Shown: positions 210-56,482 of the stretch, piece by piece
Layout: the number at the start of each line of letters is the position of its first letter
How positions within the stretch are numbered: the stretch's first letter is position 1
NCBI GenBank assembly: GCA_029582155.1
Contig: CM055901.1
Span: 20,005,597 to 20,069,596, forward strand
Reading direction: 5' to 3'
Length of the DNA: 64,000 nt
From: Panopea generosa
Taxonomy: Eukaryota; Mollusca; Bivalvia; Adapedonta; Hiatellidae
Program-made: the position numbers and the translations under genes
The notes under the pieces: model-generated
Databases searched by the model: none
Told to the model about the DNA's origin: nothing
Seen by the model: only the letters and a program-made list of their open reading frames with translations

Positions 210-479
210 AATCAGCAACAAGGGCAGATAAATCATCAGCACCATCCGGGATGTTTAAACCTCTTCAAGGGAGTGAACTGCAGGACAGGCTCAAAGAAAA
301 GTATGGCAGTGTTGACGATGACAGTGTTAGTGTGAAAACAGAACATTTATCTGATTTGGTATTCCATGGTAAATCGTCAGGCACCAGACTGGGCAGCGGT
401 GGTTCTGGTTCCAGGTCTAACAAATCAGGGGGTCAGTCAAAAAAAGGTGTTGTTGCAACAGGAGGGGAACCAGTAAAAG
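210..479 (+). CDS. ERCC6L2: ERCC6L2-like exon 1 of those in the window (N-terminal linker)
   Basis: Acceptor TTTATACAG ends at 209 and donor AAAG/GTAAAA starts at 480. It enters with two bases of a split codon, so an upstream exon must exist outside the window. It encodes residues 1-89 of the model, including [18 protein letters not shown] and a Gly/Ser/Lys-rich tail ([14 protein letters not shown]). This region lies between the expected Tudor domain and the ATPase core and is probably disordered. The donor phase (1) fits exon 2 exactly. Confidence 0.75.
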
Positions 480-9400: not shown

Positions 9401-12400
9401 CCTGTCCCCCTTTTTAAGAAAAATTTGGATGAGAATCTAGCAATTATTTTATATTGGTCTTACATTCACTTAAGAAAATGAGCCAAGAACAACTGCAAGA
9501 CTGCAAGGGTTCAACAAATAAATAAAGGTAATCATGTATTTATACTAATTATTTTTGCTTGATTATGTAGAAAGCTTGAAATTTTTGTGAATAAAATTGA
9601 GTCCACAACATCGGTAGAACCTGTACTGGGCATTGTTTTTTAAGAGGAAATTAGTTTGAAACTGGTACTGAACTTGCAATCTCTGTTGTGAGTAGCCAAC
9701 TGCCTAACCATCATCCCTGTTTAAATTACTTCTCACACTGTTCTACATAGATAAACGCACTTCTGGAACACTGAACACATTACCAATTGTTCTAAAAGCA
9801 TCTTGTTTCTATAGATTGTCATCAATTGCTCCAAATATTCAGGAAAAAATATGGGGTTGACCAGGTTGTTTTTTCACAATATCCATGATTTGATGACAGT
9901 CCTTCATTTTTGACAATTCTGTTTATTTCTTGCAATGTTGAAACTGTTATATCTTCATCAAACAGCACCTAGTGTCAGTCGAACATGGCACAACTCCTGA
10001 CAATGTTCGATTCTTTTCATCTGTAGAGAAAAAAAGATCATTTAAAGCATTTTCAAAAAAAATATGCCAAACCAATTTACACAGCTCTAATTTCTCGGGC
10101 ATAATAATCTGCTACTGTTATTTAAGGGAGGTAATTCTTAAGTGAGACATTTAGCAAGACTCTTTATTTTCGTACGCTTAGTCCTAGTTTTGCCTAGGGA
10201 GACATTTAGCAAGACTCTTTATTTTCGTACGCTTAGTCCTAGTTTTGCCTAGGGAGACATTTAGCAAGACTCTTTATTTTCGTACGCTTAGTACTAGTTT
10301 TGCCTAGGGAGACATTTAGCAAGACTCTTTATTTTCGTACGCTTAGTACTAGTTTTGCCTAGGGAGACATTTAGCAAGACTCTTTATTTTCGTACGCTTA
10401 GTCCTAGTTTTGCCTAGGGAGACATTTAGCAAGACTCTTTATTTTCGTACGCTTAGTCCTAGTTTTGCCTAGGGAGACATTTAGCAAGACTCTTTATTTT
10501 CGTACGCTTAGTCCTAGTTTTGCCTAGGGAGACATTTAGCAAGACTCTTTATTTTCGTACGCTTAGTCCTAGTTTTGCCTAGGGAGACATTTAGCAAGAC
10601 TCTTTATTTTCGTACGCTTAGTCCTAGTTTTGCCTAGGGAGACATTTAGCAAGACTCTTTATTTTCGTACGCTTAGTACTAGTTTTGCCTAGGGAGACAT
10701 TTAGCAAGACTCTTTATTTTCGTACGCTTAGTCCTAGTTTTGCCTAGGGAGACATTTAGCAAGACTCTTTATTTTCGTACGCTTAGTCCTAGTTTTGCCT
10801 AGGGAGACATTTAGCAAGACTCTTTATTTTCGTACGCTTAGTACTAGTTTTGCCTAGGGAGACATTTAGCAAGACTCTTTATTTTCGTACGCTTAGTCCT
10901 AGTTTTGCCTAGGGAGACATTTAGCAAGACTCTTTATTTTCGTACGCTTAGTACTAGTTTTGCCTAGGGAGACATTTAGCAAGATTTGTCTAAGTTGTAA
11001 AAACTTACTTCACAATCAATATAAAATAAATCGATTTAAACTAGTTTGCACTTATAATGTTAGAGAGATTTATATGAATGCAGGTTTTGATGAGGAGGAC
11101 ATGGAGAAACCCAGGTTTACTTATAAGCCAGAAGGAGCCAAGGTTCCATACATTTTGTCACACAATGGAGAAACACCAGTCGTACAGGTACAGTGGAACA
11201 TGATGGAAATTAGTAACCAATGATTATACTAGTTCTGTGAAATTCACATCTCACTTTTTCCCCATGGTTACATGATTCTTACGCTTAAAAAAGTCCTAGG
11301 TAATTTGGTTTTGAAATATTTTCAAAATGGTTCATAGTGGCTGGGATTTCTTGATTTCAACATTATACATGTATTTATGAGCATTTGAGGACTTCTTTTT
11401 AAAAAAATCTTAGGGTGTTACTGCACTCTCTTTAAAAATAACCAAGCCAGTCATTTTTATGTGGGTATACTTTCCTGCTATGAGAAAATAATACTTTTAA
11501 AAAAAATTCTATGTTGTATTTTTGTTTCACATTGGAAATCCTAGACCTTATTTTATATAGAACAAAGAACAAAATTCATCTGTGTAGTGAGACCTTTAGG
11601 AAGAGTAGTCCCTGTCTGGCTATACCTGCCTTACAGGTCTTACTACACTGTTTAATTCTGCTCTTTGTTGTAGATAAAATATATGATATTGAGGGCTAAC
11701 AGACAATCAGTTAACCTAACCACTCTTTCCTGGAATCCTAGAAAGTTGACCAGTAATCAAGCATACCTCTGCAAGTAACTGATAACTTTCTGACTTGAAT
11801 CAGTGGTGAGTGACAAATATCAATGAGATGCAATGTCGTATAACTACCTTCATGGAAACTGTGGCCGGGCGGGGATCCAAAGTCGAAACCAATGGATTAA
11901 TAGTCGGACATGTTACCTACTATGCTAACCGAGCCCATCTGTAATACTTTTCTTTTTAAAATAGACTTAAAAACATTTAGACTACCAAAGATAATGATAT
12001 TGACTTATACATCATAAAGTGTTCTAAACAAAGTAACCGATCCATTGTTCTGTCTATTGTAGGTTCCAGCATCAGTCAATCAGTATTTACGCGACTATCA
12101 GAGAGAGGGAATCAACTTTCTTTATAGTCACTACAAGTATGATAGAGGGGCAATACTAGGGGATGATATGGGGTTAGGAAAAACAGTCCAGGTAAGAACT
12201 GGAGAAAGTCTAGTTTCTTTATAGTCACTACAAGTATGATAGAGGGGCTATACTAGGGGATGATATGAGGTTAGGTAAAACAGTCCAGGTAAGAACTAGA
12301 GAAAGTCTAGTTTTTTTATAGTCACTACAAGTATCATAGAGGGGCAATACTAGGGGATGATATGGGGTTAGGTAAAACAGTCCAGGTAATAACTAGAGAA

Positions 12401-15400
12401 AGTCTAGTTTCTTTATAGTCACTACAAGCATGATAGAGGGGCAATACTAGGGGATGATATGGGGTTAGGTAAAACAGCCAAGGTAAGAACTAGAGAAAGT
12501 CTAGTTTCTTTTTAGTCACTACAAGTATGATAGAGGGGCAATACTAGTTGATGATATGGGGTTAGGTAAAACAGTCAAGGTAAGAACTGGAGAAAGTCTA
12601 GTTTCTTTTTAGTCACTACAAGTATGATAGAGGGGCAATACTAGGGGATGATATGGGGTTAGGTAAAACAGTCAAGGTAAGAACTGGAGAAAGTCTAGTT
12701 TCTTTTTAGTCACTACAAGTATGATAGAGGGGCAATACTAGGGGATGATATGGGGTTAGGTAAAACAGTCCAGGTAAGAACTAGAGAAAGTCTAGTTTTT
12801 TTATAGTCACTTCAAGTATGATAGAGGGGCAATACTAGGGGATGATATGGGGTTAGGTAAAACAGTCCAGGTAAGAACTAGAGAAAGTCTAGTTTCTTTA
12901 TAGTCACTACAAGCATGATAGAGGGACTATACTAGGGGATGATATGGGGTTAGGTAAAACTGTCCAGGTATGATTTTTTCATTATAATTATTTATAATTT
13001 ACCTTTCAATAATTAGTTTCAGCTATTGGATTTGCACTGTTTCTTGCCCTCTTCATCACAAAGGGATATTTTTTAACTTGATTATTCTATTGGTCCAGAG
13101 GTCTGTGTTGGCGTTTAGCCCTTGGAATCTGTTTGTTACCTGTGTTAAGGTTTTTATATTTATTTTATAAGTGTGCACGACTTGCAGTTATAAGGATGGC
13201 TTTTATATAAATAGGCCTCCTTATACTCTGATGCAGTATGTGACATATCTAGGCTCCTTACTTCAAAGTCAAGGTCATATTGAAGGGTGAATAGGTCACA
13301 TTTGCCTTTAAACTCTGCATTTATGTTTTGGCGCAAGTTATGATTTACTGTGCATACAGTCAAACCTGTCTTAAGCAGCCAGTCAAGGGAAAGAGAAAAG
13401 ATGGCCTTTTAAGACAGATTGTTGCTTAATACAGGTTAATTTACTCTGAAAGTTTGAAAGCATAGAAATGGGAAATAGAAAACATGGTTGTTTAAGACAG
13501 GTGGCTGCTTAATAGAGGTGACCGCTTACACAGGTTTAACTATACTTACAGTTATATGAATGTAACTTGGCACAAGGGTGTATACTTATACCTCAGAGAA
13601 ATTTTGTACCATAAAAGGGGCTGCTATATTTAAGTTCAGGGCGAAATATTGGAATGAAGAGAAGAAGTTATCTTGGTTTAGGTGCAAGTTGTATATAATT
13701 GTAGGTATTACTGTTAACTTGGTATTATGATTCAAATGTTGGCTCCATTATTTTTATTTTTAAATGTGTATCATATAGAACATTACAACTTTTGTGTACA
13801 AGACCATATCTCAGAAACCATTTCATGTATTGAATTGAAACTTTACACAAGACTTCCCAGTCATCTAACCTACTATACGTTAGATAACTCTTGCTTGAAT
13901 ATAATGCCAATTATGACCCTTGTTTGACTTTGAAATTCTGGTTAAAATTTTGTATGCAAGTTCCATCAAGTCCATATCACACCAATAACTCAAAGTATTT
14001 GATTGAGACTTCACCACACAAGATTTCCAAGTCATCAAACCTACTACAATAACTAAGTTAAGTTTTTGTATGAATATACTGCACATTATGGCCCTTGTAT
14101 GACTTAAAAATCCCTCTTTATTAATTTTGTTGTTGTTGTGTTAAATATTCAGCCCTGTTTTAACTTTTAAACTTCATAACCTGCCCAAGTCTTACCACCA
14201 CCAATTCCCCCCTTCATTTTTTTTTTAAATTCTGTATTGAATTCTCTGCCCCATTTCAACTTTTGTACTTTACATTTTTTTTTGACAGAATTATCGGCCT
14301 TGTTGGATGACTTAGGTTGCATTTATATACTTTACTTACTTTAGAAACCAGTTTATTCTTATAAAACATATCAAAACATAAATTGTTTATGTTTTAAGGC
14401 ATTTCAGTGTTTCTTATACATAGTGTCAGTGTCTATTTCTGCATGCTTCAAGTTTTTAAGTAGCCAAAATTCAATTTAGGCAAGTCGTGGTGAAAGTCTT
14501 TTTGATGACATGTTTTAATGAGAAATGATTTAGATATTTCACAATGTTTCGTCAATTTCAGGTTATAGGGTTCCTTTCAGCTCTTTTGGGTAAACAAGGA
14601 AACAGGGTTGATGTCATGAGGCAAAAACCTCGCTTCATTAGAAAGGTAATTAAAAGTACATTTTAACCATGATTTGCTCAGAATATTTGTAATTTATTGT
14701 TTTCTTTATTATATATAATCGCTTTGCTCAGGTGTATAGCGTATAAGTAACATGCACGATGAAACAGTAATATTTTTAAAAACAACATATTTCAGCTGTC
14801 GGATTCTGCCTGTATAAAAGATGATGCTGTGACAAGGGATCCCTTTTTGATTATTGGCCCTGGCTGTGTCCTGTACAACTGGATTGATGAGCTTGAAACA
14901 TGGGGATACTTTACTGTCAGGTAACCACTCAACCTACTCATGTTGTCAAGTAACCACTCGACCTAGTCATGTTGTCAGGTCACCACTCTACCTACTAATG
15001 TTGTCAGGTCACCACTCTACCTACTAATGTTGTCAGATAACCACTTGACTAAGTCATATTGTCATGTAAACACTCCATCTAGTCATGTTGTCAGGTAACC
15101 TCTCAACCTACTCATGTTGTCAGGTAACTTCTCAACCTACTCATGTTGTCTGGTAACCACTCAACCTAATCAAGTTGTCTGGTAACCACTCAACCTGCTC
15201 ATGTTGTCTGGTTACCACTCAACTAAGTCATGATGTCAGGTAACAACTCAACATACTCATGTTGTCAGGTAAGCACTCAACCTAGACATATTGTCAAGTA
15301 ACAAGTTGACCTAGTCATGTTGTCAGGTAACCACTCAACAAACTCATGTTGTCAGGTAAGCCCTTAACCTAGACATATTGTCCGGTATCAAGTTGACTTA

Positions 15401-18400
15401 GTCATGTTGTCAGGTAACCACTCAACCTAATCATACTGTTAGATAACCATTCAACCTATTAATTTTTTTTTCTAGTCATGTTGTCAGGTGATCTCTCAAC
15501 CTACTCATGATGTCAGGTAACTGCTCAACCTAGTCATATTGTCAGGTAACCACTCAACCTAGTCATGTTGTAAGGTAACAACTAAACATACTCATGTTGC
15601 TAGGTAATCACTTGACCTACTCATGTTGTCAGGAAACAACTCAACCTAGTCATGTTGTCAGATAACCACACAACCTAGTCATGTTGTCAGGAAACCAGTC
15701 AATATACTCATATTATCAGGTAACCACTCAACCTTGTCATGTTGTCAGGCCTAGTCATGTTGTCTGGTAACTGTTCAACCTTGTCATGTTGTCAGGTAAC
15801 CACTAGACCCAGTCATGTTGTCAGTTAACTGCTTAACCAAGTCATGTTGTCAGGTAAGCACTTGACCTGCTTATGTTGTCAGGAAACCACAAACCTGCTC
15901 ATGTTGTCAGGTAACCACTGAACCTATTTATGTTGCCAGGTAACTACTCAACCTAGTCATGTTGTCAGGTATCTACTTTACCTACACATGTTATAAGGTA
16001 ACCACTCAACCTACTCATATTGTCAGGTAACCACTCAACCTAGTCATGTTGTCAGCTAACCACTCAATCTAGTCATATTGTCAGGTAACCAAAAAACCTA
16101 GTCATACTGTCAGGTAACCACTCAACCTATTAAAGTGTTCATCAGAGTAAAATTAAAGGGGCTGAGAAAACAATTTCTTTGTACATTAACACAATTCAGG
16201 AAATACCACGGGGCTGTCAAACCTCTACATTCTATAAAACATGTATACCTGTACTGCAGAAAATACCATAGGGCTGACAAGTTACCACTTACCTATAAAC
16301 ATGTATACCTGTACTGCAGAAAATACCACAGGGCTGACAAATTACCTCTTACCTATAAGCATGTATAACTACAATGCAGAAAATACCACAGAGCTGACAA
16401 ATTACCACTTACCTATAAACATGTATACCTGTACTGCAGAAAATACCACAGGGCTGACAAATTACCTCTTACCTATAAGCATGTATAACTACAATGCAGA
16501 AAATACCACAGAGCTGACAAATTACCTCTTACCTATAAACATGTATACCTGTACTGCAGAAAATACCACAGAGCTGACAAATTACCTCTTACCTATAAGC
16601 ATGTATAACTACAATGCAGAAAATACCACAGAGCTGACAAATTACCACTTACCTATAAACATGTATACCTGTACTGCAGAAAATACCACAGGGCTGACAA
16701 ATTACCTCTTACCTATAAGCATGTATAACTACAATGCAGAAAATACCACAGAGCTGACAAATTACCACTTACCTATAAACATGTATACCTGTACTGCAGA
16801 AAATACCACAGAGCTGACAAATTACCACTTACCTATAAACATGTATACCTGTACTGCAGAAAATACTACAGGGCTGACAAATTACCACTTACCTATAAGC
16901 ATGTATAACTACAATGCAGAAAATACCACAGAGCTGACAAATTACCACTTACCTATAAGCATGTATACCTACACTGCAGAAAATACCACAGAGCTGACAA
17001 ATTACCACTTACCTATAAACATGTATACCTACACTGCAGAAAATACCACAGAGCTGACAAATTACCACTTACCTATAAACATGTATACCTACACTGCAGA
17101 AAATACCACAGAGCTGACAAATTACCACTTACCTATAAACATGTATACCTGTACTGCAGAAAATACCACAGAGCTGACAAATTACCACTTACCTATAAAC
17201 ATGTATACCTACACTGCAGAAAATACCACAGAGCTGACAAATTACCACTTACCTATAAACATGTATACCTACACTGCAGAAAATACCACAGAGCTGACAA
17301 ATTATCACTTTTCTATATAAATGTATATTGACACTGCAGAAAATACCATGGGGCTGACAAGGCAGAGTGTTTAGCAGATGTAAAAAAAGGAAAACTGGAA
17401 ATTGTTGTCACCACCTTTGAAACATTTAGGGAACACCAGGTAGGTAAATTTAAAACATATTTACATCAGGACATATCAAATATGTCTGTATTGTTTGTGT
17501 TTAGTTTAGTCCTGCACATACATTCAAGTACAGGGAAACTTCGATAACTCAGAGTTAATGTCTGCACTCTGCCAGTATGTAACACATAACCTTCTGGTAT
17601 CCTATCAGAGCAGTTTCTCACCATTGCAATCCAAAGCTAGAATCCTTATCCTAGCAGAGGGAAAGGCTACTCAGTGGTTATTGGTAAGGTCAAATCTTGT
17701 GAACATTCGACACACATTACTTAGATATGCCAGGCCTGGTTAGCTCAGTTGGTAGCTAGTTTGAATCCCCCCTCTGCCACAGTCTCCGTGATAATTGATA
17801 CAGGACATTGTGTCTCATTGTCATTATCACCGCTGATTAAAGTCGAAAAGTTATCAGTTACTTGCAGGAATGGTTGTGCTCGAGTACTGGTTAATCTTTC
17901 AGGATCGCAGGAAAGATGGTTAGATTTTCTAATGGTTTGTTAGCCATCGATGGCATAAAAATGATGCTTAACAGCATCCAAACAAACAAACATTCCTAAA
18001 TGAATAAGAGAACAAATATTTGAAGATTCAGTTGTTATAGTTGCCATGGAAACAAAAACAGTCTGTATAATTATAATGTTTATATTTCTAGGACAGTTTG
18101 AATGCAATAAACTGGAGTGCAGTGATTGTAGATGAGGTGCATAAAATCAAGGTAAGTCCGCCTCGCATGTGGAAGGTCATGGGTTTGATCCCTGGCTGGT
18201 GTCATATTATATTTTCACCCGCCTAAAAATTCACTACTTATGTACTTATGATAAAGAAAGCATCAAACCTGAATGTTAAAATGTTTTTTGAAGAAAAGAG
18301 AGGCGGGTGAAAATATTATAGAATTTTGCTATAATTTCCCTCCCCCCCCCCCCCTTTTTTTTTCTTCAAAATTGATCACCACTACTTATTATGATAAAGA

Positions 18401-21400
18401 AAGCATCAAACTTGAATGTTAAAATGTATTTTGAAGAAAAGAGAGGCGGGTGAAAATATTATAGAATTTTGCTATAATATTTTTTCCCCTACTCCCCAGC
18501 CCCCTCTTAAAAATACTCTTTTATCCCAAGTTGATTATCTACACTATAATGACTATACTTTAACAAACAATAGTAATCATATTGAGAAAGTAAAGAAAGG
18601 TATTTTGTTAGAAAAGAGGGGCGTGTGAAAATATTATAGCCATTATACTTTCACCTTCCCCTGACAAAAAAATACAACTGTAATGCTTTCTTTATCATAA
18701 TAAGAAGTTGTGTTCATTTTTGAAAATAATATTTGGGGGTAGTGGATGAAAATATATTGACTCTTTCCTCATCATAAGTACAACTGTAATGCTTTCTTTA
18801 TTATAATAAGAAGTGTTTGTTTTTTAAAAAAATATAAGGGGTGGTGGGTGAAAATATACTGGCTATAATATTTTCACCCGCCCCTCTTTCCTCATCAGAT
18901 AAATTATTTCAATAAAGCAAAAATATTTTTTTGTCTGATAAAGCATATAAGTCATACTACTGAATGTAATCATTTAAAACTGAAGATGGGATAAATGAGA
19001 TGAGTGGGAGGGGTTGAAAATATAATGGCTATAATATTTTCACCCTCCTATATTATATATTTCATTCAAGTTTGCTTCATCTTAAATGCAAGTTTTATGC
19101 TTTCTTTGTCATAAAAAGTATTTGTGTTCATTTTTTTAAAAATATAATCGGGGAGGGGGGAGGTGGGTGAAAATATTATAGCAAAATTTTATAATATTTT
19201 CACCAGCAGGTGAAAATATTATATGGGTGAAAATATTATCTGACACCAGGTCATAACAAAGACTTGAAAATGGTATAAGAAGCTTCCTTGCTTGATGCTC
19301 AGCATTTGGGTTTACTACTAAAGTTGGCAAATCAGATGGGGAAAAAAAACACAATAGAATTATTTTATAAAGGTTATCGAAATACGACTTAAGTTGCGTC
19401 AGATATTTTGTGAAATATGCACATGCGTATCTGCAACTAAATAATGAGTTTGGATCATTAAAAGAAATACATTGAGAAACTTGCAGTATGGCTGCTTTGA
19501 AAAATTTCTCTATAAAAATGTGAAATATAGCCAAGGTCAATAACTGGATATCAGCTGTTTGTTTGCTGTGGATTTTTCTGTATATCAATAAGGTTTTGGG
19601 TCAGGTATAGAAGGAAATTCCTATTTGTAATAAGCCCAACAGGTCATCATCTTTCATCTGATATTATCCATTTGTGAGGACTTTATTGTATTTTTCAGAC
19701 ATGCAGAGCAAACTTTATCTGGATATTGCTTGTTAGAATAAAAATTACATTGTCATATATGAATGAAAAAAATACATTTCAGGGTTTGAAAGCTCAAACG
19801 ACAAAAGCATTAAGGACCTTAAACACTCGTAGAAGATATGGTCTTACTGGAACAGCATTGCAGAACAATTTGTTGGAGTTCTGGAGTCTACTTGACTGGT
19901 AGGTGTTGACATAATGTCCCAGTGCTTCATTTAGTCCATCAGGGTTCTGGAGTCTACTTGACTGGTAGGTGTTGACATAATGTCCCAGTGCTTCATTTAG
20001 TCCATCAGGGTTCTGGAGTTTACTTGAATGGAAGGTGTTGACATAATGTCCAAGTGCTTCATTTTGTCCATCAGGGTTCTGGAGTCTACTTGACTGGTAG
20101 GTGTTGACATTATGTCCCAGTGCTTCATTTTGTCCATCAGGGTTCTGGAGTCTACTTGACTGGTAGGTGTTGACATTATGTCCCAGTGCTTCATTTGTCC
20201 ATCAGGGTTCTGGAGTCTACTTGACTGGTAGGTGTTGACATAATGTCCCAGTGCTTCATTTTGTCCATCAGGATTCTGGAGTCTTCTTGACTGGTAGGTG
20301 TTGACATTATGTCCCAGTGCTTCATTTTGTCCATCAGGGTTCTGGAGTCTACTTGACTGGTAGGTGTTGACATTATGTCCCAGTGCTTCATTTGTCCATC
20401 AGGGTTCTGGAGTCTACTTGACTGGTAGGTGTTGACATAATGTCCCAGTGCTTCATTTTGTCCATCAGGGTTCTGAAGTCTACTTGACTGGTAGGTGTTG
20501 ACAAAATGTCCCAGTGTTCCTTTTTTGTTCCATCAGGGTTCTGGAGTCTACTTGATTGGTAGGTGTTGACATAATGTCCCAGTGCTTCATTTTGTTCATC
20601 ATGGTTCTGGAGTCTACTTAACATGTAGGTGTTGACATAATGTCCCAGTGCTTCATTTTGTCCATCAGGGTTCTGGAGTCTACTTGACTGGTAGGTGTTG
20701 ACATAATGTCCCAGTGCTTCATTTTGTCCATCATGGTTCTGGAGTCTACTTGACTGGTAGGTGTTGACATAATGTCCCAGTGCTTCATATTGTCCATCAG
20801 GATTCTGGAGTCTTCTTGACTGGTAGGTGTTGACATAATGTCCCAGTGCTTCATTTTGTCCATCAGGGTTCTGGAGTCTTCTTGACTGGTAGGTGTTGAC
20901 ATAATGTCCCAGTGCTTCATTTTGTCCATCAGGATTCTGGAGTCTACTTGACTGGTAGGTGTTGACATAATGTCCCAGTGCTTCATATTGTCCATCAGGA
21001 TTCTGGAGTCTTCTTGACTGGTAGGTGTTGACATAATGTCCCAGTGCTTCATTTTGTCCATCAGGGTTCTGGAGTCTTCTTGACTGGTAGGTGTTGACAT
21101 AATGTCCCAGTGCTTCATTTTGTCCATCAGGGTTCTGGAGTCAACTTGACTGGTAGGTGTTGACATAATGTCCCAGTGCTTCATTTTGTCCACCAGGGTT
21201 CTGGAATCTACTTGACTGGTAGGTGTTGACATAATGTCCCAGTGCTTCATTTAGTCCATCAGGGTTCTGGAGTCTACTTGACTGGTAGGTGTTGACATAA
21301 TGTCCCAGTGCTTCATTTAGTCCATCAGGGTTCTGGAGTTTACTTGAATGGAAGGTGTTGACATAATGTCCAAGTGCTTCATTTTGTCCATCAGGGTTCT

Positions 21401-24400
21401 GGAGTCTACTTGACTGGTAGGTGTTGACATTATGTCCCAGTGCTTCATTTTGTCCATCAGGGTTCTGGAGTCTACTTGACTGGTAGGTGTTGACATTATG
21501 TCCCAGTGCTTCATTTGTCCATCAGGGTTCTGGAGTCTACTTGACTGGTAGGTGTTGACATAATGTCCCAGTGCTTCATTTTGTCCATCAGGATTCTGGA
21601 GTCTTCTTGACTGGTAGGTGTTGACATTATGTCCCAGTGCTTCATTTTGTCCATCAGGGTTCTGGAGTCTACTTGACTGGTAGGTGTTGACATTATGTCC
21701 CAGTGCTTCATTTGTCCATCAGGGTTCTGGAGTCTACTTGACTGGTAGGTGTTGACATAATGTCCCAGTGCTTCATTTTGTCCATCAGGGTTCTGAAGTC
21801 TACTTGACTGGTAGGTGTTGACAAAATGTCCCAGTGTTCCTTTTTTGTTCCATCAGGGTTCTGGAGTCTACTTGATTGGTAGGTGTTGACATAATGTCCC
21901 AGTGCTTCATTTTGTTCATCATGGTTCTGGAGTCTACTTAACATGTAGGTGTTGACATAATGTCCCAGTGCTTCATTTTGTCCATCAGGGTTCTGGAGTC
22001 TACTTGACTGGTAGGTGTTGACATAATGTCCCAGTGCTTCATTTTGTCCATCATGGTTCTGGAGTCTACTTGACTGGTAGGTGTTGACATAATGTCCCAG
22101 TGCTTCATATTGTCCATCAGGATTCTGGAGTCTTCTTGACTGGTAGGTGTTGACATAATGTCCCAGTGCTTCATTTTGTCCATCAGGGTTCTGGAGTCTT
22201 CTTGACTGGTAGGTGTTGACATAATGTCCCAGTGCTTCATTTTGTCCATCAGGATTCTGGAGTCTACTTGACTGGTAGGTGTTGACATAATGTCCCAGTG
22301 CTTCATATTGTCCATCAGGATTCTGGAGTCTTCTTGACTGGTAGGTGTTGACATAATGTCCCAGTGCTTCATTTTGTCCATCAGGGTTCTGGAGTCTTCT
22401 TGACTGGTAGGTGTTGACATAATGTCCCAGTGCTTCATTTTGTCCATCAGGGTTCTGGAATCTACTTGACTGGTAGGTGTTGACATAATGTCCCAGTGCT
22501 TCATTTTGTCCACCAGGGTTCTGGAATCTACTTGACTGGTAGGTGTTGAGATAATGTCCCAGTGCTTCATTTTGTCCATCAGGGTTCTGGAGTCTACTTG
22601 ACTGGTAGGTGTTGACATAATGTCCCAGTGCTTCATTTTGTCCATCAGGGTTCTGGAGTCTTCTTGACTGGTAGGTGTTGACATAATGTCCCAGTGCTTC
22701 ATTTTGTTCATCAGGGCAAGACATTTTATCTTTAATACTCATGTTGGACCTTTCCAGCAAGGCATGCAGTAAAATGTGTTTCATGATCATATGAAACCAA
22801 ACTCTGATACTAGATAATTTTCTATATACAGGGTTACTGTGTAAGTGGTCACCTTTATTAAAGAGCCACTTGTCTTAAGCTGCCACATTTGTTATTTCCC
22901 ATTTATATGCTTTCAGACCAAATTCATCTGCATTAAACAACCTGTCTAAAAAGGCCACTTTTGCTCCTTGACTGGCTTCTTAAGACAGGTTTGACTGTAT
23001 TCTAATGCTGTTATCTATTTCCTGTAGGGCCCAACCGGGCTGCTTGGGGAGACAGACGGACTTTGAAGTTGAATATGTGCATGCAATAGAGGGGGGTCAG
23101 AGACACGATGCCAATAAACGAGAACTTGCCCTCGCCAGAAAAAGTAGGTCAAAATTTATTATGACCAATAATTATGGTTCAGATATTTGTTGTTTTTTTA
23201 CCAGATTAATCCCCACACTTACTAATTGAAAATGGAAGTTGCAGTTGTATGCTGTTTAGCTAAGTGTTTATTAGAGACAGTATTCTAAGCATTACCTCAC
23301 AGAAATATCATGCCGCAGACACATGGTATGATACCCCAACCAGTCATATTATACTGATACCGGGCTGACTAGACCTCAAACTATTCTCTAAATGCTGACC
23401 GCCAAGTGAGGAAGTGTACATTACCAATTTTCAAGTGTTTGGTATATCCCAGCCGGGAATTGAACCCAAGACCTTCAGCATGCAAAGCTGATGCTCTACC
23501 ATTAGACTAACGCTGTGGTCTTATACAAATTGGGTTTCATTAATAAATTGAAACTAAAATTGAAAAAATTTTAAACAACATCTTTCTGAAATCCCGTATT
23601 CAATGTGAATCATCCTAGACTAAATTTATATAATGTATATATTTATGTATAAAAATGACATCTGCTTTAAAACCACAATATTGATTTTAATAAAAACTTT
23701 ATCACGATGGTGTTCCTTGCAATTTGCAATTTCAGACTTAAGGGGTGTAACACAAAGTCTGAATGGGCACTCATGTTTTTCAGTACATATATAGTGGATT
23801 TTGATAAAATATGAGAGTTTAGGGGGTTAGTATCATTTTTTTTTTTTAAAGAGTACATCCGTCATTGTTATTATACTTGGGCCAATTTTTCTTAAGTTTG
23901 TGTTTTCCTCTTCGTAAAATACTCAAGAAGGCCACGTTATATTTTGAAATCAGATGAGTATATCGGGGCCATTGTCAGCCATCTTGTTTTAAAATTTTGA
24001 ATTCATGTAATACAGTCAAACCTGTGTAAGCGGTCACCTTCTCTAACAAGCAGCCACTTATTAACACTTTACTTTATATAGATGCCTTTGGACACTTAAT
24101 ATAGAAGGCTTTTGAATTATTGGGTGAATTATGTTTATATTAACTGACAGACTGGAAAACAGTGCAGGAAGTGTTCAGATTGCTCTGAATCTAAGCTGTT
24201 TTAAGCAACAACCTGTCTTAAAAGACCATTTTTGCTCCTTCCATTGACTTACTGCTGGTGACAGGTTTGACTATTTCACATGGGTATAATGAAGTTCACA
24301 GAATATTGCACAATATATTTACACTTTGGATATTTGGTTATATAATTATGTACATTATCAATACGGTACATATTTTAAGTCCATTTATTTTGTAAAAAAA

Positions 24401-27400
24401 TTACTTTGTCATCGGATGAATGGTAAAAAAACATCAAACCATTATTTTATATGCAATTTGGTCATTCTTGTAGAGAAAAAGAAAACATTTGACGCAGATA
24501 GGGAATATGGGTCAGGCTCCATTTTTACAAAGCTTCCTTTTTAGTATATGCATTCAGGCTGAAATATTTTTGAAAATTTACATACTGATATCAGATAAAT
24601 TTGTGAAAAATATTTGCATTTAAAATGTTGTGACAAAGCGTTAAAAATAATTAACAGTGATTATAATTGACAGTGATACAATTTACAGTGATATTATTGA
24701 CAGTGATACAATTGACAGTGATTCAATTGACAGTTATACTATTGATTTTGATATAATTGACTGATAATAATTGACAGTGATACAATTGACAGTGATATAA
24801 CTGACAGTGATAATAATTGACAGTGATACAATTGACAATGATATAATTGACAGTGATATAATTGACAGTGATAATAACTAACAGTGGTATAATAATTGAC
24901 AGTGATACAATTGACAGTGATACAATTGACAGTGATATAATTAACAGTGATATAATTGACAGTGATAATAATTGACAGTGGTACAATTGACAGTGATATA
25001 ATTGACAGTGATACAATTGACTTGACAGTGAAATAATTGACAGTGATATAATTGACAGTGATAAAATTTACCTTGATATAATTTAAACTGTTCAGAACTA
25101 GGAATGTTAATTGAAAAGTAAATTTCAAATTAAGCAGATACTGAAGTTTAGGTGTTATGTAAATGCGGGGCCAGTACTGTTAAAAAGCAGGTGCTTGTGG
25201 CTTGTATACATGTCTCTTTTGAATTTGGTAAATACTGGTATTGAAAAAAATATGAAAATAATTTCATTCATCAGTTGATACTTTATTGGATATTGTGGAA
25301 AGTTAGAGATCCAAGTTATTTTTATGCAACTTTTTGCACTGTTCCAGAGAAAGAGAAGTTTGCTGAGATAAGGCGTGGCATGATGATACGGAGACTGAAA
25401 ACTCTCATTGCTGACCAGTTACCCAAGAAAGGTCAGATTCTGTTTGTTTTGTCAATAATACTGTGTGAATAAAGAGTGTAATGTTTGTGATGATGATGCT
25501 GTTGATATGATGATAATTGTGATGGTGATGCTGTTGATATAGTGATTGTGATGATGATGCTGTTGATATGATGATGCTGTTGATATGATTATTATAGTGA
25601 CGATGATGCTGTTGATATGGTGATGCTGTTGATATGATGATTATTGTGATGATGCTGTTAATATGGTGATTATTGTGATGATGATGCTGTTGATGTGGTG
25701 ATGGTAATGCTGTTGATATGATGATTATTATGATGATGATGTTGATATGATGATTATGGTGATGCTATTGATATGCAGATTATTGTGATGATGCTGTTGA
25801 TATGATGATGATGCTGTTGATATTATGATTATTGTGAAGATGATGCTGTTGATATGGTATGGTGATGCTGTTGATATGATGATTATTGTGATGATGATGT
25901 TGTTGATATGATGATTATTGTGATGGGGATGCTGTTGATGTGATGATGATGCTGTTGATATGCAGATTATTGTGATTATGATGTTGATAAAGTGATGGTG
26001 ATGCTGTTAATATGATGATTACTGTGATGATGATGATGCTGTTGATATGATGATTATTATGATGGTGATGCTATTAATATGATTATTGTGATGGTGATGC
26101 TGCTGATATGATTATTGTGATGATGATGCTGTTGATGTGGTGATGGTAATGCTGTTGATATGATGATTATTATGATGATGATGTTGATATGATGATTATG
26201 GTGATGCTATTGATATGCAGATTATTGTGATGATGCTGTTGATATGATGATGATGCTGTTGATATTATGATTATTGTGAAGATGATGCTGTTGATATGGT
26301 ATGGTGATGCTGTTGATATGATGATTATTGTGATGATGATGTTGTTGATATGATGATTATTGTGATGGGGATGCTGTTGATGTGATGATGATGCTGTTGA
26401 TATGCAGATTATTGTGATTATGATGTTGATAAAGTGATGGTGATGCTGTTAATATGATGATTACTGTGATGATGATGATGCTGTTGATATGATGATTATT
26501 ATGATGGTGATGCTATTAATATGATTATTGTGATGGTGATGCTGCTGATATGATGATTGTGATGATGATGCTGTTGATATGATGATTATTGTGATAATGA
26601 CGCTGTTTATATGATGATTATTGTGATGATGCTGTTAGTATGGTGATTATTTTGATGATGATGCTGTTGATATGATGATGATGCTGTTGATATGATGATT
26701 ACTGTGATGGTGATGCTGTTGATATGATGATTGTGATGATGATACTGTTGATATAGTGATTGTGATGCTGTTGATATGATGGTTATTGTGATGGTGATGC
26801 TGTTGATATGATGATTGTGATGATGATGCTGTTGATATAGTGATTGTGATGATGATGATGTTGAAATGCTGATGCTGTTGATATGATGATTATAGTGATG
26901 CTGTTGATATGAGGATTATGGGGATGCTGTTGATATGATGATTATTGTGATGATGCTGTTAATATGGTGATGATTGTGATGATGATGATGTTGATATAGT
27001 GATTGTGATGATGATGCTGTTGATATGATGATGCTGTTTATATGATGATTATAGTGATGATGATGATGTTGATATGGTGATGCTGTTGATATGATGATTA
27101 TTGTGATGATGATGCTGTTAATGTGATGATTATTGTTGTGATGATGCTGTTGATATGATGATTATTGTGATGATGATGCTGTTAATGTGATGATTATTGT
27201 TGTGATGATAATTTTTGTGATGATGATGCTGTTAATGTGATGATTATTGTGATGATGATGCTGTTGATATGATGATTATGGTGATGCTGTTGATATGATG
27301 ATTATGGTGATGTTGATGCTGTTGATATGATGATTATGGGGATGATGTTGATATGATGATTATTGTGATGATGATTCTGTTTATATGATGATTACTGTGA

Positions 27401-30400
27401 TGAGGATGCTGTTGATATGATGATTATTGAGATGATGATGCTGTTAATATGATGATTAGTGTGATGAGGATGCTGTTGATATGATGATTATTGTGATGAT
27501 GATGCTGTTAATATGATGAGTATTGTGATGATACTGTTAATATGATGATTATTGTGATGATGATGCTGTTGATATAGTGACTATTGTGATGCTGCTGTTA
27601 ATATGATGATTATTGCAATGCTGATGCTGTTAATATGATGATTATGATGATATTGATGCTGTTGATATGAGGATTATGGGGATGATGTTGATATGATGAT
27701 TATGGTTATGATGTTGCAGACAGCAGTGAGGATGAAAGAATTAATAGTGGTTAGAGATGGTGGTGTAGGTGATGATGATAGACATTCTGGAAACAGACAT
27801 TAAGACAGATGTCCTGGGTACTCAAGTGAGATACTGAAGTGAAGATCTGCATACATTTTAGCTGGGCCTGGTGTTGTTGATAGGGTGTTGGCTCCCTATA
27901 ACAGTAATCACAAGTTCTATCCTGGACTTGGTGCAGTGACTTCTCGTAAACAGTTCTCAGTGCTAGTTTGATTCTGGAAATAGGCTCAATGGTGATTCTT
28001 AAAAACTCTGAGAGCTTACATTGCAGTTGAGCTTAAATAAATTAGCTAAAACAATAATTATAAATATATTGCTATTATTAAAAGGTAATGGTTGTAATAT
28101 TTACATCTGATTTTGCAGACGACAATGTGGTGTTCTGTAAGTTGAGTCAACTCCAGACAAGCATTTACAAAACCATCCTAAACAATCCGAGCATGCACCT
28201 GGTCTTACACAAGGATGACCCCTGCTCCTGTGATAGTGGCAAACAGCAGGGTAAATGTTGCTTCAAGGTAAGTTATCACACAGACTGTAAACTGTAACAA
28301 TCCCAGCATGCACCTGGTCTTACACAAGGATGACCTCTGCTCCTGTGACCATACAGCAGGGTAAATGTTGCTTCAAGGTAAGTCATCACACAGACTTTAT
28401 ACTGTAACAATCCCAGCATGCACCTGATTTACACAAGGATGACCCCTGCTCCTGTGATAGTGGCATACAGCAGAGTAAATGTTGCTTCAAGGTAAGTCAT
28501 CACCACACTGTATACTGTAACAATCCTAGCATGCACCTGGTCTTACACAAGGATGACCCCTGCTCCTGTGATAGTGGCATACAGCATTGTAAATGTTGCT
28601 TCAAGGTAAGTCATCCCACAGACTGTATACTGTAACAATCCCAGCATGCACCTGGTCTTACACAAGGATGACCCCTGCTCCTGTGATAGTGGCATACAGC
28701 AGAGTAAATGTTGCTTCAAATTAAGTCATCACCACACTGTAACAATCCCAGCATGCACCTGGTCTTACACAAGGATGACCCCTGCTCCTGTGATAGTGGC
28801 ATACAGCAGAGTAAATGTTTCAAGGTAAGTCATCACACAGACTGTATACTGTAACAATCCCAGCATGCACCTGGTCTTACACAAGGATGACCTCTGCTCC
28901 TGTGATAATGGCATACAGCAGTGTAAATGTTGCTTTAAGGTAAGTCATCACACAGACTGTAAACTGTAACAATCCCAGCATGCACCTGGTCTTACACAAG
29001 GATGACCTCTGCTCCTGTGATCATACAGCAGTGTAAATGTTGCTTCAAGGTAAGTCATCACACAGACTGTATACCGTAACAATCCCAGCATGCACCTGGT
29101 CTTACAGAAGGATGACCCCTGCTCCTGTGATAGTGGCATACAGCAGAGTAAATGTTGCTTCAAGGTAAGTCATCACCACACTGTATACTGTAACAATCCC
29201 AGCATGCACCTGGTCTTACACAAGGATGACCCCTGCTCCTGTGATAATGGCATACAGCAGAGTAAATGTTGCTGCAAGGTAAGTCATTACACAGACTTTA
29301 TACTGTAACAATCCCAGCATGCACCTGGTCTTACACAAGGATGACCTCTGCTCCTGTGATAGTGACATACAGCAGTGTAAATGTTGCTTTAAGGTAAGTC
29401 ATCACACAGACTGTAAACTGTAACAATCCCAGCATGCACCTGGTCTTACACAAGGATGACCTCTGCTCCTGTGATAGTGGCATACAACATTGTAAATGTT
29501 GCTTCAAGGTAAGTCATCACACAGACTGTAAACTGTAACAATCCCAGCATGCACCTGGTCTTACACAAGGATGGCCCCTGCTCCTGTGATAGTGGCATAC
29601 AGCAGAGTAAATGTTGCTTCAAGGTAAGTCATCAAACAGACTTTATACTGTAACAATCCCAGCATGCACCTGGTCTTACACAAGGATGACCCCTGCTCCT
29701 GTGATAGTTGCATACAGCAGTGTAAATGTTGCTTTAAGGTAAGTCATCACACAGACTGTAAACTGTAACAATCCCAGCATGCACCTGGTCTTACACAAGG
29801 ATGACCTCTGCTCCTTTGATAGTGGCATACAGCAGTGTAAATGTTGCTTCAAGGTAAGTCATCACACAGACTGTAAACTGTAACAATCCCAGCATGCACC
29901 TGGTGTTACACAAGGATGACCTCTGCTCCTGTGATCATACAGCAGGGTAAATGTTGCTTCAAGGTAAGTCATCACACAGACTTTATACTGTAACAATCCC
30001 AGCATGCACCTGGTCTTACACAAGGATGACCCCTGCTCCTGTGATAGTGGCATACAGCAGAGTAAATGTTGTTTCAAGGTAAGTCATCACCACTCTGTAT
30101 ACTGTAACAATCCCAGCATGCACCTGGTCTTACACAAGGATGACACCTGCTCCTGTGATAGTGGCATACAGCAGAGTAAATGTTGCTTCAAGGTAAGTCA
30201 TCACACAGACTTTATACTGTAACAATCCCAGCATGCACCTGGTCTTACACAAGGATGACCCCTGCTCCTGTGATAGTGGCATACAGCAGAGTTAATGTTG
30301 CTTCAAGGTAAGTCATCACCACACTGTATACTGTAACAATCCCAGCATGCACCTGGTCTTACACAAGGATGACCCCTGCTCCTGTGATAGTGGCATACAG

Positions 30401-33400
30401 CAGAGTAAATGTTGTTTCAAGGTAAGTCATCACACAGACTGTATACTGTAACAATCCTAGCATGCACCTGGTCTTACACAAGGATGACCCCTGCTCCTGT
30501 GATAGTGGCATACAGCATTGTAAATGTTGCTTCAAGGTAAGTCATCCCACAGACTGTATACTGTAACAATCCCAGCATGCACCTGGTCTTACACAAGGAT
30601 GACCCCTGCTCCTGTGATAGTGGCATACAGCAGAGTAAATGTTGCTTCAAATTAAGTCATCACCACACTGTAACAATCCCAGCATGCACCTGGTCTTACA
30701 CAAGGATGACCCCTGCTCCTGTGATAGTGGCATACAGCAGAGTAAATGTTGCTTCAAATTAAGTCATCACCACACTGTAACAATCCCAGCATGCACCTGG
30801 TCTTACACAAGGATGACCCCTGCTCCTGTGATAGTGGCATACAGCAGAGTAAATGTTTCAAGGTAAGTCATCACACAGACTGTATACTGTAACAATCCCA
30901 GCATGCACCTGGTCTTACACAAGGATGACCTCTGCTCCTGTGATAATGGCATACAGCAGTGTAAATGTTGCTTTAAGGTAAGTCATCACACAGACTGTAA
31001 ACTGTAACAATCCCAGCATGCACCTGGTCTTACACAAGGATGGCCTCTGCTCCTGTGATAATGGCATACAGCAGTGTAAATGTTGCTTCAAGGTTAGTCA
31101 TCACACAGACTGTATACCGTAACAATCCCAGCATGCACCTGGTCTTACAGAAGGATGACCCCTGCTCCTGTGATAGTGGCATACAGCAGAGTAAATGTTG
31201 CTTCAAGGTAAGTCATCACCACACTGTATACTGTAACAATCCCAGCATGCACCTGGTCTTACACAAGGATGACCCCTGCTCCTGTGATAATGGCATACAG
31301 CAGAGTAAATGTTGCTGCAAGGTAACTCATTACACAGACTTTATACTGTAACAATCCCAGCATGCACCTGGTCTTACACAAGGATGACCTCTGCTCCTGT
31401 GATAGTGACATACAGCAGTGTAAATGTTGCTTTAAGGTAAGTCATCACACAGACTGTAAACTGTAACAATCCCAGCATGCACCTGGTCTTACACAAGGAT
31501 GACACCTGCTCCTGTGATAGTGGCATACAGCAGAGTACATGTTGCTTCAAGGTAAGTCATCACACAGACTTTATACTGTAACAATCCTAGCATGCACCTG
31601 GTCTTACACAAGGATGACCCCTGCTACTGTGATAGTGGCATACAGCAGAGTAAATGATGCATCAAGGTAAGTCATCACCACACTGTATACGGTAACAATC
31701 CCAGCATGCACCTGGTCTTACACAAGGATGACCCCTGCTCCTGTGATAGTGGCATACAGCAGAGTAAATGTTGCTTCAAGGTAAGTCATCACCACACTGT
31801 ATACGGTAACAATCCCAGCATGCACCTGGTCTTACACAAGGATGACCCCTGCTCCTGTGATAGTGGCATACAACAGAGTAAATGTTGCTTCAAGATAAGT
31901 CATCACACAGACTTTATACTGTAACAATCCCAGCATGCACCTGGTCTTACACAAGGATGACCCCTGCTCCTGTGATAGTGGCATACAGCAGTGTAAATGT
32001 TGCTTCAAGGTAAGTCATCACACAGACTTTATACTGTAACAATCCCAGCATGCACCTGGTTTACACAAGGATGACCCCTGCTCCTGTGATAGTGGCATAC
32101 AGCAGAGTAAATGTTGCTTCAAGGTAAGTCATCACCACACTGTATACTGTAACAATCCCAGCATGCACCTGGTCTTACACAAGGATGACCCCTGCTCCTG
32201 TGATAGTGGCATACAGCAGTGTAAATGTTGCTTCAAGGTAAGTCATCACACAGACTGTATACTGTAACAATCCCAGCATGCACCTGGTCTTACACAAGGA
32301 TGACCCCTGCTCCTGTGATAGTGGCATACAGCAGAGTAAATGTTGCTTCAAGGTAAGTCATCACACAGACTGTAAACTGTAACAATCCCAGCATGCACCA
32401 GGTCTTACACAAGGATGACCCCTGCTCCTGTGATAGTGGCATACAGCAGAGTAAATGTTTCAAGGTAAGTCATCACACAGACTGTATACTGTAACAATCC
32501 AAGCATGCACCTGGTCTTACACAAGGATGACCTCTGCTCCTGTGATAATGGCATACAGCAGTGTAAATGTTGCTTTAAGGTAAGTCATCACACAGACTGT
32601 AAACTGTAACAATCCCAGCATGCACCTGGTCTTACACAAGGATGACCTCTGCTCCTGTGATCATACAGCAGTGTAAATGTTGCTTCAAGGTAAGTCATCA
32701 CACAGACTTTATACTGTAACAATCCCAGCATGCAACTGGTCTTACACAAGGATGACCCCTGCTCCTGTGATAGTGGCATACAGCAGAGTAAATGTTGCTT
32801 CAAGGTAAGTCATCACCACACTGTATACTGTAACAATCCCAGCATGCACCTGGTCTTACACAAGGATGACCCCTGCTCCCGTGATAATGGCATACGGCAG
32901 AGTAAATGTTGCTGCAAGGTAAGTCATCACACAGACTTTATACTGTAACAATCCCAGCATGCACCTGGTCTTACACAAGGATGACCTCTGCTCCTGTGAT
33001 AGTGACATACAGCAGTGTAAATGTTGCTTTAAGGTAAGTCATCACACAGACTGTAAACTGTAACAATCCCAGCATGCACCTAGTCTTACACAAGGATGAC
33101 CTCTGCTCCTGTGATAGTGGCATACAGCAGTGTAAATGTTGCTTCAAGGTAAGTCATCACACAGACTGTAAACTGTAACAATCCCAGCATGCACCTGGTC
33201 TTACACAAGGATGACCCCTGCTCCTGTGATAGTTGCATACAGCAGTGTAAATGTTGCTTCAAGGTAAGTCATCAAACAGACTTTATACTGTAACAATCCC
33301 AGCATGCACCTGGTCTTACACAAGGATGACCCCTGCTCCTGTGATAGTGGCATACAGCAGTGTAAATGTTGCTTCAAGGTAAGTCATCACACAGACTGTA

Positions 33401-36400
33401 TACTGTAACAATCCCAGCATGCACCTGGTCTTACACAAGGATGACCCCTGCTCCTGTGATAGTGGCATACAGCAGTGTAAATGTTGCTTCAAGGTAAGTC
33501 ATCACACAGACTTTATACTGTAACAATCCCAGCATGCACCTGGTCTTACACAAGGATGACCTCTGCTCCTGTGATAGTGACATACAGCAGTGTGAATGTT
33601 GCTTTAAGGTAAGTCATCACACAGACTGTAAACTGTAATAATCCCAGCATGCACCTGGTCTTACACAAGGATGACCTCTGCTCCTGTGATAATGGAATGT
33701 TGCTTCAAGGTAAGTCATCACCACACTGTATACTGTAACAAATAGTATAGCCATAATACTTTCACCCTCCCCCGACAAAAAAATCTTTTATCCAAAGTTT
33801 CATTTTTTTAAATGATAGCTTGATTATCTTCACTTTAATGACAAACTATACTGGAACAAACAAAAGCAATCTAATTGAGATAGTTACTCAATGTAAAGGG
33901 ATGGTGGGTGAAAATATACTGGCTATAATGTTTTCACCCGCCCCTCTTTCCTCATCAGATAAATTATTTCAATAAAGCAAATATATTCTTTTGTCTGATA
34001 AAGCATATAAGTCATACAATTGAATGTAATCATTTAAAACGGAAGTTGGGATAAATGAGATGAGTGGGAGGGGGGGGGTGAAAATATAATAGCTATAATA
34101 TTTTCACCCCCTCTGTTATTTTTAGCTCACCTGAGCCGAAGGCTCACAGGTGAGCTTTTGTGATCACCTGGTGTCCGTTATCTGTCGCCCATCATTAACT
34201 TTTAGCTTTTAACAACTTCTCCTCTGAAACCATCTGGGCCAATTTTGATATAATTTCACAGAAATGTTGCTTGGGTGATCCTCTACCAAGTATGGCGGCC
34301 AGGGGGTGGGGTTAGTTTACTTTATAAGCTATAGTAAAAACTTAAAAAATCTTCTTGTCAGAAACTACTGGTTTGATAATAAAATAATTTCACAGAAATG
34401 TTTATTGGGTGACTCTCTACCAAGTTTGTTCAAGCCATCTTGATTCATCAAAAAACATGGCAGCCAGGGGGTGGGGTTAGTTTTACGTCAAATAACTTCC
34501 CCTTGTTTTATAGCATAAATGTCTGTATATAGCAATTATTATAAGAAGTGGTAATAAACTCTTTAAATAAACTTTTTTTTGCTATTATTATACAATATTA
34601 TACCAGATATAAGTTTTAAAAGATAATTCATCATAAAAAAATGCATGATACAATTATGATCAATGATTGAAATATTATTCATATATCATGAACCATTTTT
34701 CTGAAAATAAGTCAGAGTTTTTATGGTTCAGACAGGGATTGTTTACTGCTTCATAATAAAGCAATACCATATTTTTAGCTAATTTCATCACAGCAAGAAG
34801 TCTGCTTGAGATTTTCAGTGTCAAAGTGTACTTGAAATCTTGGAGGAGGAGCTTAATTGTTTTTGGGGGAGAGTGCACTGCTACAAAGATTCTTTCAAGC
34901 AATAGACTTTGGGAAGGCTTGCGTTTGAAACTCATAGGAATATTTATTGTGCTGGAACTGTGGATTATTTCATGCACAATAGTTAAGTCTGATGCTTTAG
35001 TTTGAAACCATTCTCAAACATAACAGGTTAGTTTTGTGCTGGAACTGGATTTTTATCTTAGTTCGTAGACTTAGTAGCTATAGTAAAAACTTCAAAAGCC
35101 TTCTTGTCAGAATCTACTGACCTGATTTTGATGTAATTTTATGACATTTACCATGGGTGAACCTCTACCAAGTTTGAACTCTTCTATGCATCTGTTACAT
35201 CGTCAAAACAAATCAAAATTCTAACTACTTGCCCATCTCGTCTTTCTGGAATTTTGAGTGTACATGTATTATATAATCTTCTTAAGTTGGGTGACTTAAG
35301 GTCAGTCAGGTTAGCGATATAGAGTCATCTTGGCCCTCTTGTTTTCTTTCAAGTTTGCTTCATCATCAATGCAAGTTTTATGCTTTCTTTATCATAATAA
35401 GTAGTTGTGTTCATTTTTAGCTCACCTGAGCAGAAGGCTCACAGGTGAGCTTTTGTGAGCGCCTGGTGTCCATCATCTGTCTACCATCGTCTGTCGTCCG
35501 TCGTTAACTTTGAGCATCTAACAACTTCTCTGAAACAGTTGGGTCAATTTTGATATAACTTGGGTGAACCTCTACCAAGTTTGAACTCTTCTACGTATCT
35601 GTTACATCTTCAAAACAAATCAAAATTCTAACTACTTGCCCATCTCATTTTTCTGGAATTGTAAGTGTACATGTTTTATATAATCTACTTAAGTTGGGTC
35701 AATCAGGTGAGTGATATATGGCCATCTTGGTCCTCTTGTTTTAAAACTATAATTGGGTGTGTGTGTGTGGGGGGGGGGGGGGGGGGGGGGTGAAAATCTT
35801 ATATTATACGGTACAGATAAAAAAATTACATCTTAAGGGATAACTCTTCATGTTTGGCGGGAATGATAGCCATTTTTGGACAGCTTCTTGTAATTGAGCG
35901 CCCAGTCTTCAGATGAGTTTTGATGTTTATATTCTTATGATTAACTGTCGGGGACTCTCTCATACTATTGTTAATGTGAATCAACTGTCTTTTGGTGTGT
36001 TTTTTTCAAACACCCTGCTTTCTATTTCTTCATCAGAAAACTCCGGAGGGTGAATCTGTGAAATCGCTCATGTTCACATTTATGCATCTGTTACTGAAGA
36101 CATCCAATCATGTGGCTCTTCTCATACCAACAAACAAAACAAGCGAGAAGCAGGCTAAACAATCAAGGAAAATCTGTGAAGCAGCCTTCAAGGAACATCC
36201 CGAGTTTGTGGCTCAGACAAAGGAAGCATCATTTAAAACACTGTCTGATCCGAAATATTGTGGGAAAATGAAAGTGAGTTGTTTGCCATCTTAAAACTGC
36301 TTAAGTTATATTTTAAAAGCACTAAATGATAGATCTGTTATTCACAAAATATAATATGTGAAGGGTTTGAAATTTAACTTCGAAAAGCATATACATTGTA

Positions 36401-56200: not shown

Positions 56201-56482
56201 TGTATCACGGTCTCTGGAGGTGTATGGTCTTGTAGTCTACAACACTGTACCACGGTCTCTGGAATGTATGGCCTTGTAGTCTACAACACTGTACCATGGT
56301 CTCTGGAGGTGTATGGTCTTGTAGTCTACACCACTGTACCAACAGTCTCTGGAGGTGTATGGTCTTGTAGTCTACACCACTGTACCACCGTCTCTGGAGG
56401 TGTATGGTCTTGTAGTCTACACTACTGTACCATGGTCTCTGGAGGTGTATGGTCTTGTAGTCTACACCACTGTACCAAATCT
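53270..56482 (+). repeat. 45-bp minisatellite downstream of the stop codon, about 70 copies
   Basis: Unit GGTCTCTGGAGGTGTATGGT, CTTGTAGTCTACACCACTGT and ACCAT. The first 250 bp are a diverged form (TCTCTAGGGGTATTGTAGTC). A block near 55040-55420 is repeated near 55535-55870. It starts 23 bp after the ERCC6L2-like stop, so it may be transcribed as 3' UTR. Forward and reverse open frames up to 428 codons come from the 15-codon period. Confidence 0.96.

Follow-up and report, generated by a model that had tools for sequence, protein, structure and literature searches.

The window analysed here is a 64,000-nucleotide stretch of the Panopea generosa genome (G000:C8:20005597-20069596, within 1.474 Gb in 39 contigs), and most of it is occupied by an ERCC6L2-like gene in which five tandem arrays lie across predicted exon-intron boundaries. 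Pfam profiles matched the SNF2/helicase part of the gene (SNF2-rel_dom 1e-57, Helicase_C 2.9e-23), and the top protein match of a 400-residue part was the ERCC6L2 protein of Dreissena polymorpha (68% identity, 100% query coverage). The best ERCC6L2 matches cover the whole 400-residue query, and the predicted spliced protein is intact and collinear with ERCC6L2. Because of these domain and protein matches, the gene is, as judged from its sequence, an ERCC6L2 orthologue.

Tandem arrays at splice junctions of the ERCC6L2-like gene

Arrays were called with Tandem Repeats Finder (TRF) and then compared with the predicted exons of the gene (Table 1). An earlier note on this DNA had described five arrays on four donors and one acceptor, with units of 97, 29, 60, 66 and about 115 bp. 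Their places were borne out by TRF and the predicted exons, and the unit lengths and exon numbers agree. In total, the arrays hold 161 junction copies, 146 of them with an intact GT or AG, which is close to the roughly 150 splice-site copies that had been estimated. The surplus copies of all five arrays sit on the intron side, which is required for an intact protein. In intron 7, the donor array from exon 7 nearly meets the acceptor array from exon 8, and degenerate look-alikes of the exon 8 start, read by eye, continue to the left of the 60-bp array to about position 16137. An AG|GT core is present in three of the four donor units and missing from the 66-bp unit.

Table 1. Predicted gene, array-bearing exons and junction arrays in the window; copy numbers (x) are those of TRF.
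Feature	Position	Strand	Description	Junction copies	Intact GT or AG
ERCC6L2-like gene	211..53247	+	25 predicted exons; an earlier, true first exon may precede those listed
Exon 5	12063..12191	+	predicted; donor 12191/12192
97-bp array, exon 5 donor	12117-12970	+	x 8.8; 75 exonic and 22 intronic bases per unit	9	GT 9/9
Exon 7	14796..14920	+	predicted; donor 14920/14921
29-bp array, exon 7 donor	14915-16129	+	x 42.8; 6 exonic bases, TGTCAG	42	GT 33/42
Intron 7	14921..17339	+	array makes up 2,317/2,419 bases (96%)
60-bp array, exon 8 acceptor	16232-17360	+	x 18.8; 21 exonic bases	19	AG 19/19
Exon 8	17340..17439	+	predicted; acceptor 17339/17340
Exon 10	19783..19898	+	predicted; donor 19898/19899
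66-bp array, exon 10 donor	19878-22716	+	x 43; 21 exonic and 45 intronic bases	43	GT 41/43
Exon 13	28119..28267	+	predicted; donor 28267/28268
115-bp array, exon 13 donor	28181-33695	+	x 48.5; 87 exonic and 28 intronic bases	48	GT 44/48

The units consist of contiguous local exon and intron sequence, each of them corresponding to the exon edge at which it lies. When the genome was searched with the 115-bp unit, the only one of the five for which dispersal was assessed, all 49 of 49 matches fell at the ERCC6L2 locus (the search skips very common words); this favours local tandem duplication over a mobile repeat. Single copies deviate from the array consensus by up to several percent. Furthermore, when the 66-bp array is compared with itself 20 units (1,320 bp) further along, the match is 99.2%, so that a block of units must have been duplicated, as by unequal exchange or a similar process.

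The window contains further repeats, and all arrays together make up about 25.6 kb, or 40% of its length. A 45-bp array (53299-56478, 72 copies by TRF) begins about 50 bases past the stop codon of the ERCC6L2-like gene, presumably in the 3' untranslated region or slightly past it, and another one (56849-60696), with a 27-bp unit repeated about 143 times, follows downstream of the gene. In addition, a short palindrome-bearing repeat (AGCTCACCTGAGC...AGGCTCACAGGTGAGCTTTT) occurs in two copies at about 34124-34160 and 35419-35455; these may mark the two ends of a small DNA transposon.

Junction arrays in other genes of the genome

For comparison, we sampled exon edges of two further sets of genes. 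The SNF2 sample comprised twenty regions of 10 kb each that surround SNF2-domain exons outside ERCC6L2. Of 57 matches, 51 were used, as three lay in ERCC6L2 itself and three outside the sampled stretches; four more were skipped owing to stops or multi-exon spans, which left 47 exons with 94 edges. For kinesin, 94 of 126 matches were kept after the weakest, those with at least two stops and near-identical twin places had been dropped. The best 56 regions of the 94 were sampled, yielding 56 exons and 112 edges; four regions were skipped, namely one overlapping a sampled region, one adjoining a sampled region and two near-identical places. The 81 myosin matches in the genome stand outside all counts, and a tblastn search of 120 listed ERCC6L2 and SNF2 proteins against the SNF2 regions entered none of them. 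All edges outside ERCC6L2 are predictions based on domain matches and a splice-site score trained on the ERCC6L2 sites, and this score falls below 4 for 11 edges in the SNF2 sample of 94 and for 17 in the kinesin sample of 112.

Of these 206 edges, 10 (4.9%, 95% interval 2.4-8.7%) were located within an array with 2.5 or more copies. Eight belong to the SNF2 sample, where the count rises to 9 of 94 when arrays of at least 1.8 copies are admitted, and two to the kinesin sample, both verified by eye. The SNF2 cases comprise 5 of 47 acceptors and 3 of 47 donors, and the presence of the exon edge within the unit was confirmed by reading the sequence at seven SNF2 loci. By eye, three more junction arrays were seen at L012, L015 and L017, at exons outside the count of 206, and the L019 array (1.9 copies) was left out of the ten. 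One SNF2 exon, at L023 (G000:C6:71007500-71017499), carries arrays on both edges (770-1710 and 1785-3350), the donor array having a 50-bp unit in 19 copies and the acceptor array a 49-bp unit in 31. Given these ten edges elsewhere, ERCC6L2 as the sole gene with junction arrays was rejected. The earlier note had missed both the presence of such arrays in other genes of the same genome and the fact that their structure is known from the 'mirages' of amphioxus. In the 20 SNF2 regions, arrays occupy 34,871 of 200,000 bases (17%).

Kinesin exons at G000:C3:268755-273301(+) recur in opposite order and with equal or almost equal scores at C3:4500416-4505040(-), about 4.2 Mb away on the contig. This pair of places, a duplicated gene or a haplotype duplication, could reveal changes in array length between copies.

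Placement and origin of the arrays

The positions of the arrays relative to exon edges were evaluated by permutation, for which arrays were collapsed to one unit and unit positions were shuffled within each locus while the number of arrays per locus was kept (at least 2.5 copies, score at least 150, unit at most 300). In ERCC6L2, 5 of 11 arrays span an edge compared to 0.96 expected (5.2-fold, P = 7e-4), and plain random placement of 11 units gives 0.60-0.63 at an edge (P for at least five, 1.1-1.2e-4); both figures are post hoc, as its junction arrays were the reason for choosing this gene. With this restriction, the statement that five arrays on boundaries are unlikely by chance was confirmed. 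The scan against shuffled positions that had been proposed, carried out on the sampled SNF2 and kinesin loci, revealed an excess in the SNF2 set (8 of 39 spanning, 1.90 expected, 4.2-fold, P = 5e-4) and none in the kinesin set (2 of 17, 2.24 expected, P = 0.69). The difference between these two sets has a Fisher P of 0.046. A flat-density test of expected counts yields stronger P values than the permutation, whose figures we prefer.

In our judgement, the arrays are probably ordinary 'mirage'-type minisatellites that arose from chance duplications spanning a junction, were tolerated via splicing and were then amplified by exchange between repeats. As a seed, a stretch of 29-115 bp that spanned a junction by chance would have been duplicated in tandem, probably through template switching at the scale of microhomology. 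The exon-proximal copy would still act as the exon edge, while the others would be removed with the intron; since splicing needs one copy only, duplications that are harmful inside an exon could be tolerated at its edge. Growth and homogenisation would follow by exchange or slippage between repeats, as exemplified by the block duplication of 20 units in the 66-bp array. The frequency of junction arrays would then be due to the heavy minisatellite load of the sampled regions, and some genes may add a modest preference for junctions. Consistent with such an origin, the end structure of the 66-bp and 115-bp arrays looks like that of simple duplications, with 1 bp of microhomology at the former (automatic estimate) and AACAA at the latter (by eye). 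The automatic estimate is partly usable, as it took the penultimate copy of the 115-bp array and returned a wrong value there; on the distal side, moreover, several arrays have eroded ends or are truncated where the sampled stretch stops.

Several observations weigh against chance seeding. Clean ends of simple duplications are wanting in 8 of 16 arrays (A+C-L negative; L017, one of the eight, is cut by the stretch end). Random seeding also predicts too few spanning arrays, both for SNF2 and kinesin together (10 of 56, 4.18 expected, 2.4-fold, P = 0.0045) and over all three sets (15 of 67, 5.13 expected, P = 2e-4), and the loosest TRF settings give 11 spanning arrays outside ERCC6L2 compared to 5.31 expected (ratio 2.1, P = 0.02). 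In ERCC6L2 and the SNF2 sample, arrays include 13 of 142 junctions, compared to a coverage of 1.8-3.6% per 100-bp bin in the collapsed intron. Finally, non-spanning arrays are no commoner than expected over the first 80 bases of the intron in these two sets (0 and 1, with 0.70 and 1.44 expected for ERCC6L2 and SNF2, respectively), whereas the kinesin loci behave in the opposite way, as 5 arrays of this type lie no more than 80 bases from an edge there, compared to 2.34 expected.

These figures bear on a junction-linked mutational process, in which R-loops or co-transcriptional breaks, as suggested before, or else a stall at the chromatin change between exon and intron would seed duplications at real splice junctions in transcribed genes. 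Such a process would account for the excess in SNF2 genes and, post hoc, in ERCC6L2, as well as for the fact that donors and acceptors are both affected, including both edges of the L023 exon. Moreover, splice-like motifs away from known edges attract no arrays, so that a real junction would be needed. However, the excess outside ERCC6L2 comes from the SNF2 sample only, and a general junction-linked origin is therefore unproved; the kinesin genes lack it, and the contrast between the two samples is itself slight. The sharp peak at junctions seen in the combined ERCC6L2 and SNF2 set was discarded, as it failed to hold in the independent kinesin set. In view of this null result our confidence in a junction-linked process is low, and we regard it as possible, not established, and rather unlikely to be the main source of the arrays. 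The related statement that splice junctions of transcribed genes are hotspots of tandem duplication in this genome, several percent of them becoming minisatellites and more in some gene classes, is tentative and rather unlikely. Some excess at junctions exists, driven by one gene class; either a real effect linked to junctions or uneven array density may account for it.

A further explanation is that selection maintains the extra splice sites, either as decoys, as had been suggested, or because they enhance the recognition of exons. The large share of intact GT and AG in the ERCC6L2 copies, many of which score equal to the real site, would fit this idea. However, across 12 junction arrays the splice dinucleotides of the copies are off consensus at 48 of 680 positions, compared to about 41 expected from the unit averages, and 13 of the 48 belong to one array, that of L013. 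Such near-expected divergence weighs against copies being kept or purged by selection, and the dinucleotides in the copies look neutral. The consensus unit of the L013 acceptor array also lacks the AG. In addition, splicing at a decoy would in many cases put the transcript out of frame, because 97, 29 and 115 are not multiples of three. Selection for decoys thus found no support, and we consider it very unlikely. The L013 array itself (G000:C8:6494500-6504499, 6774-10000) comprises about 33 copies and runs past the sampled stretch; the real acceptor next to it retains TACAG, whereas the AG is gone from its consensus unit.

It is still less probable that splice-site-like sequence as such (AGGT, pyrimidine tracts) is prone to slippage. 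The AG|GT core of three ERCC6L2 donor arrays would agree with this; the 66-bp donor array has none. In 35 arrays that reach no known exon edge, splice-like motifs were no stronger than in random windows of the same length (mean upper-tail fraction 0.552; 2 of 35 in the top tenth), indicating that a sequence motif alone is not the trigger, and on this comparison motif-driven slippage was rejected. An assembly artefact is highly improbable: long tandem arrays can misassemble and the copy numbers come from one assembly, but the copies diverge from their consensus, and the like arrays at ten other edges are part of a survey on nine contigs of 69-100 Mb. Least credible of all are dispersed mobile elements or introner-like insertions bearing splice sites, for which nothing speaks beyond the intron-like appearance of the units, and which is contradicted by the match of every unit to its own exon edge and, for the 115-bp unit, by the confinement of all 49 matches to one locus.

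Relation to known systems and significance

According to the amphioxus reports (PMC3087553, PMC3902484), 'mirages' are tandem repeats that span exon-intron boundaries in a few genes; RT-PCR (reverse transcription PCR) suggested undisturbed regular splicing, and intron gain from the repeats was proposed. BflGb6 has 3 and 6 units in its two haplotypes (PMC3087553, PMC3902484), and for amphioxus Adh3 variable copy number between individuals and somatic instability are reported. The arrays described here resemble these mirages as portrayed there in having boundary-spanning units at donors or acceptors with units of 10-160 bp, in retaining AG/GT in many copies and in the homogenisation of copies within a cluster. 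Their units hold exon and intron sequence across the boundary of a predicted exon, and either the 5' or the 3' boundary can be affected (four donors and one acceptor in ERCC6L2, five acceptors and three donors in the SNF2 sample). Unlike the amphioxus mirages, they occur in another phylum, reach 48 copies and 5.5 kb compared to the 3 and 6 units in BflGb6, and include five arrays in one gene, accompanied by an estimate of frequency over 206 predicted edges. Splicing in amphioxus was judged by RT-PCR, while the exons here are predicted from DNA alone. As for introners, similar sequence dispersed at many loci was not found in the search with the 115-bp unit. Overall, the structure matches that of the amphioxus mirages, and what is new is the taxon, the array sizes and the frequency. 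Among the titles and abstracts listed from the open-access literature, outside of which most subscription journals fall, we found no bivalve report of such arrays and no genome-wide count.

The arrays can also be related to models of intron gain. In the model of Rogers, introns are gained through tandem genomic duplication of AGGT-bearing sequence (cited in PMC3087553), and the potato RNA-dependent RNA polymerase gene (RdRp) is a case of intron gain by tandem duplication (PMC4974935). The AG|GT core of three of four donor units is in line with this model, as introns that run from GT to AG and have the length of one unit can arise when such a core is duplicated in tandem; unlike the model and potato RdRp, existing introns are enlarged here. 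In the polyubiquitin gene UBC, AG|GT cores in tandem repeats can serve as dual-specific splice sites (PMC10809524). The tandem AGGT cores observed here are similar, each being in principle usable as a 5' or a 3' splice site, but the repeats of UBC are coding and spliced stochastically, whereas the present copies are intronic.

The above results extend splice-junction minisatellites to at least one non-amphioxus genome, in which they are frequent. Errors are likely at such loci, both in automatic gene models and in splice mapping with short reads. Junction arrays represent a test bed for the choice of the spliceosome among dozens of near-identical donors, for models in which introns grow or arise by tandem duplication, and for the question whether splicing or transcription breaks DNA at exon edges. 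If junctions were indeed duplication hotspots, some introns of P. generosa, such as intron 7 of the ERCC6L2-like gene, would consist almost entirely of copies of their own ends.

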